The translations under genes were made by a program, and so were the position numbers. From assembly GCF_000935355.1 (NCBI RefSeq), contig NZ_JXZC01000001.1, positions 1,178,001 to 1,242,000 on the forward strand: 64,000 nt of DNA, written 5' to 3'. The notes under the pieces were generated by a model. The model was not told the origin of the DNA, did not search any database, and was given only the letters and a program-made list of their open reading frames with translations. Positions 25,621 to 29,584 of this stretch are shown piece by piece; the first letter of the stretch is position 1, and every line of letters starts with the position of its first letter. Source of the stretch: Rossellomorea aquimaris (GTDB lineage Bacteria > Bacillota > Bacilli > Bacillales > Bacillaceae_B).

Positions 25621-25673
25621 AAAATAAGCCCGTATGGAAGGCTTCCAGCTAAAGCTTCCAGACGGGCTTATTT
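25621..25673. terminator. terminator of the crt operon, convergent with amtB
   Basis: AAATAAGCCCGT and ACGGGCTTATTT form a 12-bp outer stem with an inner GGAAG/CTTCC pairing, and A/T runs on both sides. It overlaps the crtM stop. Confidence 0.88.
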
Positions 25674-26508
25674 ACGATATCGTTGAAATGATTTTTTCTT
25701 TTACATCTTTTGAGACAAAATGCTTCTTGGAAAAAACATTATAGTGATTTTTTCTAACTTCACTCAGGATGGCCCGATACAATAATGCAGCACCCTTCAC
25801 CGGTGTCCTTGAATACACAGGATAAAGATTCATTGTACGGAATGCTTTATCATAATAATCTTCTGCAACCCGAGCCATATCTTCCCATATGGACCGAAAA
25901 GCATCATTATTTCGATAATCCATTAATTCTGTTACGGTATATTCATATTTAACTAATAAATCCTGCGGGATATATAATCTTCCTCTTTCCAGATCCTCAC
26001 CAATATCTCTTAATATATTGGTAAGCTGCATGGCATAGCCTAAGTAAATCCCATCTTCTCTCAATTGATGCTCTTTCCCGGGAGCAAGGATAGGCAGAAG
26101 CATTAACCCTACAGTGCTCGCTACGTGATAAGAATAGTCCAGTACATCATCCATCGTCACGTAAACTCTCTCGTTCAAATCCATCCGTTGACCTTTAATC
26201 ATATCCCGAAAAGCTCCGATATCCATATTGAAATGTTTAAACACATCGTTTAAGGCTATCCACATAGGCTCTTCTTCGTTATAATATCCCCTAAGAAATG
26301 ATTCGAATTCTCTTTCGAATTGAAGCAATTCTTTAGAAGGGCAGATGCCCTCATCCACGATATCATCTACTTTTCGACAAAATGCATAAACAGCCCATAC
26401 TGCTTTTCTTTGGTCCTTCGGCAACAGGGAGAATGCTCTGTAAAACGTCTTTGAGTGAAGTTTAATGATAATCTCACAATGATCGTACGCTTCCAAGATC
26501 TTGTTCAT
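25672..26508 (-). CDS. crtM: dehydrosqualene (4,4'-diapophytoene) synthase CrtM
   Basis: A 278-residue squalene/phytoene synthase family enzyme condensing two farnesyl diphosphates to 4,4'-diapophytoene, the first step of C30 carotenoids. The two Asp-rich motifs are in CRKVDDIVDEG and NILRDIGEDLERG, and HSKTFYRAFSLLPKDQRKAVWAVYAFCR is close to staphylococcal CrtM. The start is either the ATG at 26508 or one at 26520 (four more residues); a GGAAGG lies upstream of both and I prefer 26508. It overlaps the end of the upstream desaturase. In B. subtilis the related yisP occupies the equivalent place beside asnO. Confidence 0.88.
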   Translation of the reverse strand: MNKILEAYDHCEIIIKLHSKTFYRAFSLLPKDQRKAVWAVYAFCRKVDDIVDEGICPSKELLQFEREFESFLRGYYNEEEPMWIALNDVFKHFNMDIGAFRDMIKGQRMDLNERVYVTMDDVLDYSYHVASTVGLMLLPILAPGKEHQLREDGIYLGYAMQLTNILRDIGEDLERGRLYIPQDLLVKYEYTVTELMDYRNNDAFRSIWEDMARVAEDYYDKAFRTMNLYPVYSRTPVKGAALLYRAILSEVRKNHYNVFSKKHFVSKDVKEKIISTIS

Positions 26509-27976
26509 GTAAGGCCACATCCTTCCTTTCCGACTCGGTTTTATAATGTTCTTTAAAGGTTTCAGCTACGAGTTTTGCCCCCTGCATGACGATCGGTACT
26601 CCCCCACCCGGATGGATGGATGCTCCCACAGCAAAGATATTCTTTTCTGCAAACGGTTGTACCTGTGGCCTGAACGGACCTGATTGACGTAAACTGGGTG
26701 CAATACCGAAGCTTCCTCCTGAATATAACCCCTCTTGTCTTGCTTCTTCAGGTGTCCTTACTTTCATCCACTTCATTCGCTTTCTTAACTCTTTAAAGCC
26801 CCTTTTCTCCATTGTATCCAATACGGAATTGGAAAGAAATTCTGAAGCCTCTTTCCAGTCCAATTTCTCGGAAACCGGAACAGGAATAAGGACGTATAGG
26901 ACACTGTTCCCTCCAGGAGCAAGGGATGAATCAACTTTCGACGGGTTAAATACGTAAAATGAAGGTTCTTTAGGAATTCTCTTATTCTTGAAAATATCCT
27001 CCATATTTCTAGAGAAATCTTCATTTAGATAAAATTGATGCATTTCCTTTTCATCAAACTTCCCCTCCACGCCCATATACAACAGGACGCAACCAGACGA
27101 AGGTTTGTATGGTTTAGGGGACTTCTTCTTTACTAATTTTGATGCCGTAGGAAAATCTCCATTGATGATCACCGCATCTATTTCTTCTCTACGGTTTCCG
27201 TGGACGATATGAGTCGCTTTTTCTCCTGTAGTCTCTATTTCTGTGACAGCTGAGGAGGTCTTGATTATGATACCATTTCGTTCACATGCCTCTAGTACAT
27301 GCTCCAAAAGAGAGGCATAACCACCTTTTATATAATAAATACCATGTTTATGCTCACTAAAGGATACTAAACTATAAATCGCAGGAGTCGTATAGGGATT
27401 CCCGCCGATGTATAAGGTTTGAAGCCCGTAAGCGGTTTGTAGTTTTTCATGATGAAAATAATGCTTTAAGTTCCCCATCACGTTCCTGTATGCTTTTAAC
27501 TTAAGCAGCGAACCCAGGGTTTGCCTGTTCATATAGTCTTTTGTTTTTAGAAAAGAGGATTCAAGAAATTGAGGCTTTCCGATTGTAAACCGTTCATCCA
27601 TATCATCCATAAATTGCAGGAATCCGTCTTCATCTCCAGGAAACTTTTGTTTTATTTCTTCATATTGCTTATCCATATCAGCATACTTGGTATATGTCTG
27701 CCCGTCTGCAAAATGAACATTATACAAAGGGTCACAACGAACAAATTCAATTGCGTCTGTCTTTATATCTGCTTCTGAAAGAATGGAAAGTAGCATTTCA
27801 GGCAGAAGCACGATGGTCGGTCCTTTATCGATTTTGTACTCACCTTCCTGAACAAAGGCAAGGCGCCCACCGATGATGGACTCTTTTTCATACACCGTCA
27901 CCTCATGTCCCTCTTTCGATAGTAACAGGGCCGATATCAGTCCGCCGATACCCGATCCAACAACTGCCGTCTTCAT
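26474..27976 (-). CDS. crtN: CrtN-type carotenoid desaturase (second in operon)
   Basis: A 500-residue FAD-dependent carotenoid desaturase of the CrtI/CrtN family. It has the N-terminal dinucleotide fold VVGSGIGGLISALLLSKEGHEV, EKESIIGGR, GPTIVLLPE (as in staphylococcal GPTIVMMP), and the C-terminal FAD segment FAVGASIHPGGGVPIVMQGAK. The pattern is nearest to 4,4'-diapophytoene desaturase, but separation from diapolycopene oxidase (CrtNb/CrtP) needs a phylogeny. Its ATG overlaps the stop of the upstream desaturase (ATGA), and its end overlaps crtM, so the three genes form one transcript. Confidence 0.82.
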   Translation of the reverse strand: MKTAVVGSGIGGLISALLLSKEGHEVTVYEKESIIGGRLAFVQEGEYKIDKGPTIVLLPEMLLSILSEADIKTDAIEFVRCDPLYNVHFADGQTYTKYADMDKQYEEIKQKFPGDEDGFLQFMDDMDERFTIGKPQFLESSFLKTKDYMNRQTLGSLLKLKAYRNVMGNLKHYFHHEKLQTAYGLQTLYIGGNPYTTPAIYSLVSFSEHKHGIYYIKGGYASLLEHVLEACERNGIIIKTSSAVTEIETTGEKATHIVHGNRREEIDAVIINGDFPTASKLVKKKSPKPYKPSSGCVLLYMGVEGKFDEKEMHQFYLNEDFSRNMEDIFKNKRIPKEPSFYVFNPSKVDSSLAPGGNSVLYVLIPVPVSEKLDWKEASEFLSNSVLDTMEKRGFKELRKRMKWMKVRTPEEARQEGLYSGGSFGIAPSLRQSGPFRPQVQPFAEKNIFAVGASIHPGGGVPIVMQGAKLVAETFKEHYKTESERKDVALHEQDLGSVRSL

Positions 27977-29496
27977 AAGGCTTCCCCCATTGCTTGATCT
28001 TTTCGGAATGAGTAGGACGGATCTTCGTTCATCAGCATATTCGTTGTAATACGGGCTGATTCTAATATCGTTGGCAATCCGCTTCCCGGATGAGTTCCTC
28101 CACCGACCAGCCAGCAGTTTTCAAGTTCTTCAAATTTGTTGTGAGGTCTTAGTGCCATCATCTGAGTTAATTGGTGACCAAGATTGAAGGTAGCACCTTC
28201 GTATATATTGAAGTCCGTTTCCCAGTGATGAGGAGAGATGATTTTTTCGACTCGAATATGTTCCCGAATGTCCTTTAAGCCTGTTTTGCTTTCAACCACA
28301 TCCAGAACAAGGTTCCGAAACGTTTGTTCATTCTCTGTCCAATCGATTCCGCTTACATTATTCGGAACGGGAGCAAGGATATATAAAGTGGAATGTCCTG
28401 GAGGAGCAAGCGTCTTATCTGTCACAGAAGCATTTTGAATATAGATGGAAGGATCTTCCGGAAGTGTAAACGTCTCCGTTATTTCCTCCACATTTCTCTT
28501 ATAGTCCTCTGCAAACAGGATGCTGTGATGAGGAAGATCATACTGTTTATCGATTCCAAGATAAATCATGAAGGTGGAGCAGGAATACTTCTTCTTCTTC
28601 AGTTTTTCTTTACTGTATTTCTTGAGAACCCCATCTTCTACAAGGTTACTCATCACATGAGCAAAATCTCCATTGATGATGACTTCATCTGCGGAAACCT
28701 TCTCTCCATCTTCTGTAATGATTCCCTTCACCACATTACGATCTTCAATCCACAATTTCTTGACCCCCCGGCCCAAATGGATGGAACCGCCATGCTCAGT
28801 TACTACTTTGGCCATGGCTTCAGAAAGCTGATTCAACCCGCCGATCGGATGAAAAATGCCATATTCATGTTCCATGAAAGATAAAATCGAGAATGCTCCC
28901 GGACACTCCCACGGTGACATCCCTAAATATTTTGATTGGAAGGTAAAAGCCAACCTCAATTCATGATCGGTGAAATAATCACTTAACACACTATACAGTG
29001 ATTTCCCTAATGATAATTGGGGAAGTGCTCTCAAAACCTTCCAGCTGATATATTGATAATATCGATCCATGGGACTTTGTAGAATCGGCTTTAAACGTTC
29101 CATTTTTTTACGAGTATCATTCATAAAGCGTGTATAACCCTCTGCATTGCCGGGATAATGACGCTCGATTTCCCGGGATAGTTTCTCCGGGTCTTTAAAC
29201 ATTTGCACTCTTTTATCTTTAAAAATAAGTTCATACATCATGGAGAGCTCTTTTAAATCCAGATAATCGTGAAGATTTCTTCCTGCTGCCTCGAATAATT
29301 CCTCAGCAATTTCAGGCATGCTCAAGAACGTTGGACCAATATCGAACGTATACCCATCCATGGTGACAGAACCGTTTCGTCCGCCAACGAACGTTTGCTT
29401 CTCATACACTTCTACATCGTATCCCTTGCCGGCTAGCAGCATTGCAGCTGCCAAGCCACCTGGACCAGCGCCTATGACGATCATTTTTTTGGCCAT
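27973..29496 (-). CDS. CrtN/CrtI-type carotenoid desaturase or oxidase (first in operon)
   Basis: A 507-residue FAD protein paralogous to the next gene: VIGAGPGGLAAAMLLAGKGYDVEVYEKQ at the N-terminus, FVGGRNGSVT, GPTFLSMPEI and the C-terminal WLVGGGTHPGSGLPTILESAR. Bacillus C30 pathways (B. indicus, B. firmus) use two or three CrtN-like enzymes, one for desaturation and others for terminal oxidation. This one could do either. I start it at the ATG at 29496 (MAKKMIVIG), which has a TTGGAGG site; an in-frame upstream start at 29511 adds five residues. Direct-repeat operators lie about 25 bp upstream. Confidence 0.8.
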   Translation of the reverse strand: MAKKMIVIGAGPGGLAAAMLLAGKGYDVEVYEKQTFVGGRNGSVTMDGYTFDIGPTFLSMPEIAEELFEAAGRNLHDYLDLKELSMMYELIFKDKRVQMFKDPEKLSREIERHYPGNAEGYTRFMNDTRKKMERLKPILQSPMDRYYQYISWKVLRALPQLSLGKSLYSVLSDYFTDHELRLAFTFQSKYLGMSPWECPGAFSILSFMEHEYGIFHPIGGLNQLSEAMAKVVTEHGGSIHLGRGVKKLWIEDRNVVKGIITEDGEKVSADEVIINGDFAHVMSNLVEDGVLKKYSKEKLKKKKYSCSTFMIYLGIDKQYDLPHHSILFAEDYKRNVEEITETFTLPEDPSIYIQNASVTDKTLAPPGHSTLYILAPVPNNVSGIDWTENEQTFRNLVLDVVESKTGLKDIREHIRVEKIISPHHWETDFNIYEGATFNLGHQLTQMMALRPHNKFEELENCWLVGGGTHPGSGLPTILESARITTNMLMNEDPSYSFRKDQAMGEAL

Positions 29497-29521
29497 CGTT
29501 ACAGCCTCCAATGCAATTTAT

Positions 29522-29563
29522 TTGTACATTCATTATACAATACTTATACAAATACAGTATACA
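29522..29563 (+). promoter_or_regulatory. direct-repeat operator (CarH/LitR-like) on the crt promoter
   Basis: On the plus strand TTGTACA (29522-29528), TTATACA (29533-29539) and TTATACA (29544-29550) repeat exactly every 11 bp. A fourth copy, GTATACA (29557-29563), sits 13 bp further on. Head-to-tail 11-bp repeats of the nTnTACA type overlapping a promoter are what I recall for B12-dependent photoreceptor repressors CarH/LitR, which control carotenoid genes. The block covers the -10 and start region of the crt promoter. No regulator gene of this type is in the window. Confidence 0.65.
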
Positions 29564-29584
29564 ATTCTTTTTTACTAGAAACAA
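29556..29584 (-). promoter_or_regulatory. sigma-A-type promoter of the crt operon
   Basis: TTGTTT (29584-29579), a 17-bp spacer and TATACT (29561-29556) on the minus strand. A second hexamer TATAAT (29537-29532) has no good -35 partner. Transcription from the first would start inside the 11-bp repeat block. Confidence 0.6.

Follow-up and report, generated by a model that had tools for sequence, protein, structure and literature searches.

The crt operon and its upstream repeats

The window analysed in this study, a stretch of 64,000 nucleotides from the 4.3 Mb genome of Rossellomorea aquimaris (44 contigs), carries a carotenoid operon of the crtN/crtM type, the product of which is presumed to be a C30 carotenoid. 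The first desaturase, CrtN1, shares 96-84% identity with its counterparts in Rossellomorea and Bacillus sp. relatives. Its start was assumed to be the ATG at 29496; an in-frame TTG is present at 29511. The genes and the elements recognized ahead of them are collected in Table 1.

Table 1. Genes of the crt operon and sequence elements upstream of crtN1 (positions in the window)
Feature	Position	Strand	Basis or remark
crtM-like gene, squalene/phytoene synthase family	25672..26520	-	PF00494
Second crtN-like desaturase (crtN2)	26474..27976	-	TIGR02734 above cut-off
crtN-like desaturase CrtN1	27973..29496	-	TIGR02734 above cut-off
crtN ribosome binding site GGAGG	29505..29509	-	Sequence
DR3, TGTACA; 26 bases from crtN start codon	29523..29528	-	Sequence; pattern search
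DR2, TGTATA	29534..29539	-	Sequence; pattern search
DR1, TGTATA, distal of the three 11-bp direct repeats (crt sense)	29545..29550	-	Exact match; same array ahead of crtN in relatives
Off-register TGTATA, 13 bp upstream of DR1	29558..29563	-	Sequence
Candidate -35 TTGTTT, 17 bp from TATACT	29579..29584	-	Sequence reading; tentative

Read on the crt strand, positions 29550..29523 (TGTATAAGTATTGTATAATGAATGTACA) have the form TGTATA-N5-TGTATA-N5-TGTACA, and the whole stretch ahead of the operon in the same sense is TTGTATACTGTATTTGTATAAGTATTGTATAATGAATGTACAAATAAATTGCATTGGAGGCTGTAACGATG. An earlier sequence-only reading had claimed three 11-bp repeats at this place, and the three are real and lie at exact 11-bp steps. 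On the plus strand the TACA cores fall at 29525, 29536, 29547 and 29560 (steps of 11, 11 and 13), with an extra TACA at 29553 that is out of step with the others. The pattern TGTAYA-N5-TGTAYA-N5-TGTAYA has a single match without mismatch in the 64-kb window. When up to three mismatches were allowed, five matches to the three-repeat pattern were found, all within 29512-29561, compared with a mean of 0.13 in shuffled sequence, where none of 100 shuffles reached five. The window array has three tandem 11-bp repeats with TnnACA half-sites and is located upstream of a carotenoid gene.

The same reading had counted a fourth repeat at 13 bp. The TGTATA copy is indeed there, but it is off register and lineage-specific: an extra copy 12-13 bp above the array was observed only in the window and in three (L007, L018 and L032) of the 40 related loci surveyed, so this fourth copy does not regularly belong to the array. 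The in-register fourth position in the window holds TATACT, which by eye keeps three of the five core bases.

Together with the next two bases, DR2 contains TATAAT (29537..29532), a candidate -10 recognized by eye, and it is plausible that the array covers the -10 and start region of the crt operon. TTGTTT-N17-TATACT (29584..29556) may be a further upstream promoter using the off-register copy (TATACT, 29561..29556) as its -10. A consensus promoter scan called no sigma-70-type site in the crt upstream region, TTGTTT included. A SigB-type promoter ahead of crt in Rossellomorea (GTTTA-N14-GGAAAA, noted by eye) was also considered and dropped, because its TGGAAA occupies the place of the in-register fourth repeat or the -35 and the window itself does not have it.

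In the dark, as described in part of PMC9304148, CarH proteins bind as AdoCbl tetramers to tandem 11-bp repeats of the type nnnnTnnACAn, and the tetramer is taken apart by light according to an excerpt of PMC8156234. The three repeats ahead of crtN1 would be the operator of a B12 photoreceptor repressor of the CarH/LitR type encoded on another contig, a reading to which we assign a probability of roughly 0.9.

A LitR protein encoded in the same genome

Profile searches returned six B12-binding matches in the window's genome. One of these, at G000:C44:145240-146148, is a protein with MerR_1, B12-binding_2 and B12-binding domains (referred to here as LitR), encoded on a contig other than that of crt. 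The sequence-only reading had expected the regulator to act in trans and had hinged on a CarH/LitR homologue in the genome; in both respects it was borne out. The protein would be 303 residues long with the ATG at L006:955 as start, and its gene is flanked by genes for a metallophosphoesterase and a MecA-like protein.

The best solved matches of LitR are 3whp (7.5e-25) and the CarH structure 5c8d (8.6e-25), at about 91 bits in phmmer; 5c8d is the Thermus CarH according to a figure legend in PMC8156234. The architecture, an N-terminal MerR HTH followed by C-terminal B12-binding_2 and B12-binding domains, is that of a CarH/LitR protein, and LitR also carries both Wx9EH (WENGKITTAHEH) and ExHxxG (EWHELG), a pair of motifs given as the definition of CarH homologues in an extract of PMC8156234. 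Against the NCBIfam CarH equivalog NF052513 it scores 136 bits, below the cut-off of 400, although this is still its best family in the profile library. By its sequence, LitR is assigned to the wider LitR/CarH family, and the narrow CarH equivalog name is not claimed. Three matches to the cobalamin adenosyltransferase family PF01923 were also found in this genome.

Whether such a protein on the array would respond to light or, in this lineage, to the level of AdoCbl as a measure of B12 status is a question raised by one residue. In Thermus CarH after photolysis, the upper ligand of cobalt is a His next to the motif Trp (figure legend, PMC8156234), whereas all 45 LitR loci checked (L059-L088 and L113-L127) have Glu directly behind the Trp of Wx9EH, so the light-state ligand would have to differ in these loci. 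B12-status sensing is nevertheless improbable, given that Wx9EH and [ED]xHxxG are intact in the same 45 loci, that a photolyase gene adjoins one array and that LitR of Bacillus megaterium is reported to be light-responsive in portions of PMC6739363 and PMC9758184.

Two further observations were made on proteins of this kind. In Bacillus coahuilensis, LitR (G129:C100:47287-48181) is split over two successive frames, by a frameshift or a sequencing error, and the crt array of this species (L035) is intact despite the split. A 216-residue protein of the window's genome (L004:1387-2037, contig C33 near 233 kb) has B12-binding_2 and B12-binding matches and no HTH match; Wx9EH (WEKNQITVADEH) and ExHxxG (EHHSLG) were recognized in it by eye, suggesting a stand-alone CarH-like sensor module. 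Next to its gene are a carbonic anhydrase and an ORF of 177 residues that has no assignment, and matches about 216-260 residues long are found repeatedly in the genus.

The array ahead of crtN in relatives

Out of 52 CrtN1 loci, 40 were used (L007-L044, L048 and L052) and 12 were dropped (Proteobacteria, other phyla and short matches). Spacing between TGTAYA elements was counted in 31 crtN upstream regions, namely the window and 30 loci, the ten array-less loci being omitted. Pairs were found at 11 bp (53), 22 bp (28), 12 bp (2) and 13 bp (2), so that the only peaks are at 11 and 22 bp. The exact array is present in 25 of the 31 regions, and the remaining six (L023, L025, L029, L030, L031 and L041) keep the 11-bp series with one repeat altered. 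Across the 25 aligned arrays the frequency of the top base averages 0.74 in the spacers and 0.56-0.59 in the flanks; the invariance of the cores is circular, the arrays having been picked by them, and is no evidence. Four of the array-less loci (L040, L043, L048 and L052) belong to genomes with no LitR match. The other six, from Shouchella (L033 and L034) and of the Alkalicoccus type (L036-L039), have a LitR match of 36-50% identity yet no array, which argues against a strict rule linking the two.

Among 101 relatives, 57 encode CrtN1 (E<=1e-100), and 56 of their promoters were examined, G011 with a partial CrtN1 being left out. With LitR called at E<=1e-60, the array was found upstream of crtN in 47 of 52 LitR-positive genomes (25 exact, and 22 of the 27 others matching at least 13 of 15 positions) compared with none of the three LitR-negative ones (G077, G069 and G048; best 10, 9 and 9 of 15), these three being all the LitR-negative crtN promoters available among the relatives; related genomes, moreover, are not independent. 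G082, which has a distant LitR only, shows a match of 14/15. No recognisable array was found upstream of crtN in five LitR-positive genomes (G053, G083, G071, G060 and G054). For the inexact crt sites L198, L213 and L214, the last of which is among these five, 1 of 60 shuffles scored equally. Among 183 regions ahead of other ORFs, none reached 13/15, a control that was not matched for AT content and may be lenient.

Distribution over the order

The exact array was found in 119 of 397 genomes of the order, spanning 34 of 135 genera, whereas a reversed-pattern control was found in one genome of the 397. LitR (E<=1e-60) is encoded in 234 of the 397, that is, in 115 of the 119 array genomes vs 119 of the 278 array-less genomes (Fisher 5e-28). 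At the level of genera, compiled by hand, a genome with LitR is present in 32 of 34 array genera vs 32 of 101 others (5e-11); the array genomes of genus g86 are themselves without LitR. The genomes surveyed are kin, and these p-values overstate their independence. The association is also incomplete: four of the 163 LitR-less genomes have the array (G068, with a distant LitR, G248, G273 and G332), and about half of the LitR genomes (119/234) have no exact array. Two LitR-less genomes of the window's own genus (G002 and G018) have no array, no mgsR of the type described below and no CrtN1, the joint absence of LitR, mgsR and CrtN1 perhaps going back to one event.

mgsR as the commonest neighbour of the array

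The window's genome has two exact TGTAYA arrays, that of crt and one at C41:224496-224523. The latter precedes, by 46 bp, the first ATG of an ORF of the Spx/MgsR family (TIGR01617, 119 bits vs a cut-off of 75.05), and an HTH_20 gene and a DUF2626 gene lie divergently to this ORF. In 36 genomes of the genus, 55 exact arrays were found, of which 33 adjoin mgsR, 21 crtN1 and one another gene. The main neighbours of the first 20 arrays outside the genus were again mgsR (11) and crtN1 (4), with single cases of litR-like, photolyase, Caroten_synth, STAS/SpoIIAA-like and GntR-like genes; the last two were named by eye, the STAS-like one through its likeness to L276, a SpoIIAA-like match. A further 107 regions, these being the matches listed outside the genus minus those examined before, and fewer than the total of the order, were then assigned. 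Among these listed matches mgsR accounts for 64, crtN1 for 25 plus one 45%-identical fragment (L277), DUF4397 for four and DAK2/FakA-like genes for three; litR-like, Caroten_synth-like and SpoIIAA-like genes occur once each and seven regions are unassigned.

It was also observed that mgsR is the gene that stays beside this array, the gene across from it being HTH_20 or DUF2626 depending on the genome; even where the array has the reverse orientation relative to mgsR (L306-L308 and L310), it adjoins that gene. Judging by position, the controlled gene would be mgsR rather than its divergent neighbour. LitR (E<=1e-80) is present in 52 of 53 genomes with mgsR (E<=1e-40) vs 18 of 48 without (Fisher 4e-12). 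In 50 of the 52 genomes having both, the array lies upstream of mgsR (44 exact, and six of the eight inexact cases with at least 13/15); no array was found upstream of mgsR in G071 and G080 despite their LitR. The LitR-negative G077 has a 13/15 match 137 bp upstream of mgsR. The sequence-only reading had regarded crt as a natural target, but the commonest neighbour of the motif is mgsR. No paper containing both LitR and MgsR as whole words was found in the literature searched, outside which the primary B. megaterium LitR papers lay, and within that scope the LitR-mgsR link was not found in print.

These neighbourhoods bear on the possibility that a DNA-binding protein other than LitR, such as another MerR protein or the HTH protein beside mgsR, reads the TGTAYA repeats while LitR merely co-travels with them. 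The four array genomes with no LitR at E<=1e-60 would fit such a protein, as would the HTH_20 gene adjoining the mgsR array in 28 of 62 MgsR rows among the matches listed. DUF2626 and not HTH_20 is, however, next to the array in 27 of the same 62 listed rows, and the array is found at mgsR also in genomes with no CrtN1 at the cut-off (G009, G013, G038 and G044). Furthermore, exact arrays precede the litR-like genes of two genomes (L176 and L239), and both the half-site and the 11-bp period match the published CarH operators as given in part of PMC9304148. Reading by a different protein is therefore considered very unlikely. That the repeats are no more than AT-rich promoter sequence in which several TATAAT-like -10 boxes overlap, with no regulator, is hardly credible: the region is AT-rich and TGTATAAT within the array resembles a -10, but the TGTAYA distances of 11 and 22 bp in the 31 regions, the single hit of the reversed pattern in 397 genomes, the co-occurrence of array and LitR and the 0/183 control upstream regions at 13/15 (AT content unmatched, maybe lenient) all speak against it.

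Further candidate targets

Four repeats at 11-bp steps (TGTACA, TGTATT, TGTACA and TGTATA) were found at G000:C42:74895-74944 (L096:1490-1539), just ahead of a DUF4397 gene with a sortase-family gene behind it. Of 22 matches to this region in the genus, 20 were scored (L326-L345), and 17 of these reach at least 18/20 for the four repeats; 15 of the 36 genomes of the genus have no DNA match. Exact arrays are also located ahead of DUF4397 genes in G207, G406, G354 and G248, the last being without LitR at the cut-off. The DUF4397 gene is thus a putative third target of the array.

Upstream of litR, the best series begins with TGTGTAAA and has the form TGTGTA-N5-TGTATA-N5-TGAATA or variants of it (12-13 of 15, in 28 of 45 loci), which suggests weak autoregulation of litR. 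In G053, an exact array (L174:1554-1581) lies between divergent photolyase and FAD-dependent oxidoreductase-like genes and may represent a light-repair target in another genus. Arrays were also found upstream of Caroten_synth-type genes in two genomes (L157 and L258).

Other occurrences are recorded here as such. Three genomes of genus g62 (G187, G446 and G158; L283, L286 and L292) have exact arrays just ahead of a DAK2/FakA-like and DegV-domain gene, an unexpected candidate target, which was assigned by profile match in L283 and by sequence likeness in L286 and L292. In G390, an exact array (L278:245-272) is found at the beginning of a protoglobin-MCP chemoreceptor ORF. The array adjoining the GntR-like gene of G078, recognized by eye, is perhaps a palindromic site of another kind. 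Arrays of the TGTAAA type, outside the TGTAYA consensus, occur on contig C40 of the window's genome between two minus-strand ORFs.

Proposed mechanism and regulon

The proposal that a CarH/LitR-type protein reads the crt repeats is supported by the litR gene in the genome, by an array that tracks LitR across the order and by a half-site that fits nnnnTnnACAn. By analogy with the characterised CarH proteins, from which tetramer binding, dependence on AdoCbl and light, and repression are carried over to LitR, an AdoCbl-LitR tetramer would in the dark occupy the tandem repeats over the promoter and start region of crtN1-crtN2-crtM and block transcription. In the light the Co-C bond would be broken, the tetramer would dissociate and the operon would be transcribed. 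The same LitR, through other 11-bp arrays, would repress mgsR, the DUF4397 gene and probably litR, and light would then turn on the stress programme together with the pigment.

We consider it reasonably probable, at a level of confidence clearly below that given to the operator itself, that in Bacillus relatives LitR is not mainly a pigment switch and acts as the master of a light-stress regulon, with mgsR, the gene of an Spx-type regulator that binds RNA polymerase, as the commonest member. Light would in that case be wired through vitamin B12 into redox and general stress control, and crt, DUF4397 and, in some genera, photolyase and LitR would join through the 11-bp array. Such a regulon is testable: it comprises a single protein and a single 11-bp code, and its promoters form a short list across dozens of genera. 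If mgsR is a target of LitR, non-phototrophic Bacillus relatives would set a stress programme by B12 photochemistry, and cobalamin status, light and Spx-type control would be linked. Use of the array as a green-light operator for optogenetics in Gram-positive bacteria is also conceivable. The probable crt operator resembles the known B. megaterium case, and the link to mgsR is the part of specialist interest.

Comparison with known systems

LitR of B. megaterium QM B1551 (CarHBm) is close in kind, being a MerR and B12-binding repressor of a Bacillus relative with a carotenoid target. Its operators, as outlined in part of PMC9304148, are likewise tandem 11-bp nnnnTnnACAn repeats, and they overlap the -35 or -10, as the window array plausibly does; they have four repeats, or three and a pseudorepeat, whereas the window has three regular repeats and one off-register copy. 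The window operon also differs in being of the crtN/crtM type, and the available passages of the CarHBm accounts mention neither mgsR nor DUF4397.

CarH of Thermus thermophilus (5c8d, 5c8e and 5c8f), with 3whp the top solved match of LitR, shares with it the Wx9EH and ExHxxG motifs, and its operator has three tandem 11-bp repeats in the same part of PMC9304148. Unlike LitR, which matches it at only about 91 bits in phmmer, Thermus CarH carries a His behind the motif Trp where LitR has Glu; its operator includes the -35 (PMC9304148, in part), while the window array appears to lie at the -10 and start.

MgsR (YqgZ) of B. subtilis belongs to the same Spx/MgsR family (TIGR01617) and its gene likewise adjoins a DUF2626 gene, a likeness at the level of the family. 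This arrangement is presumably the YqgZ/YqgY neighbourhood of mgsR in B. subtilis. In the portion of PMC7235348 concerned with it, mgsR of B. subtilis is said to depend exclusively on SigB and to be under positive autoregulation, whereas here a LitR-type array lies upstream of the gene; control of mgsR by LitR would therefore be a different wiring of this stress regulator.
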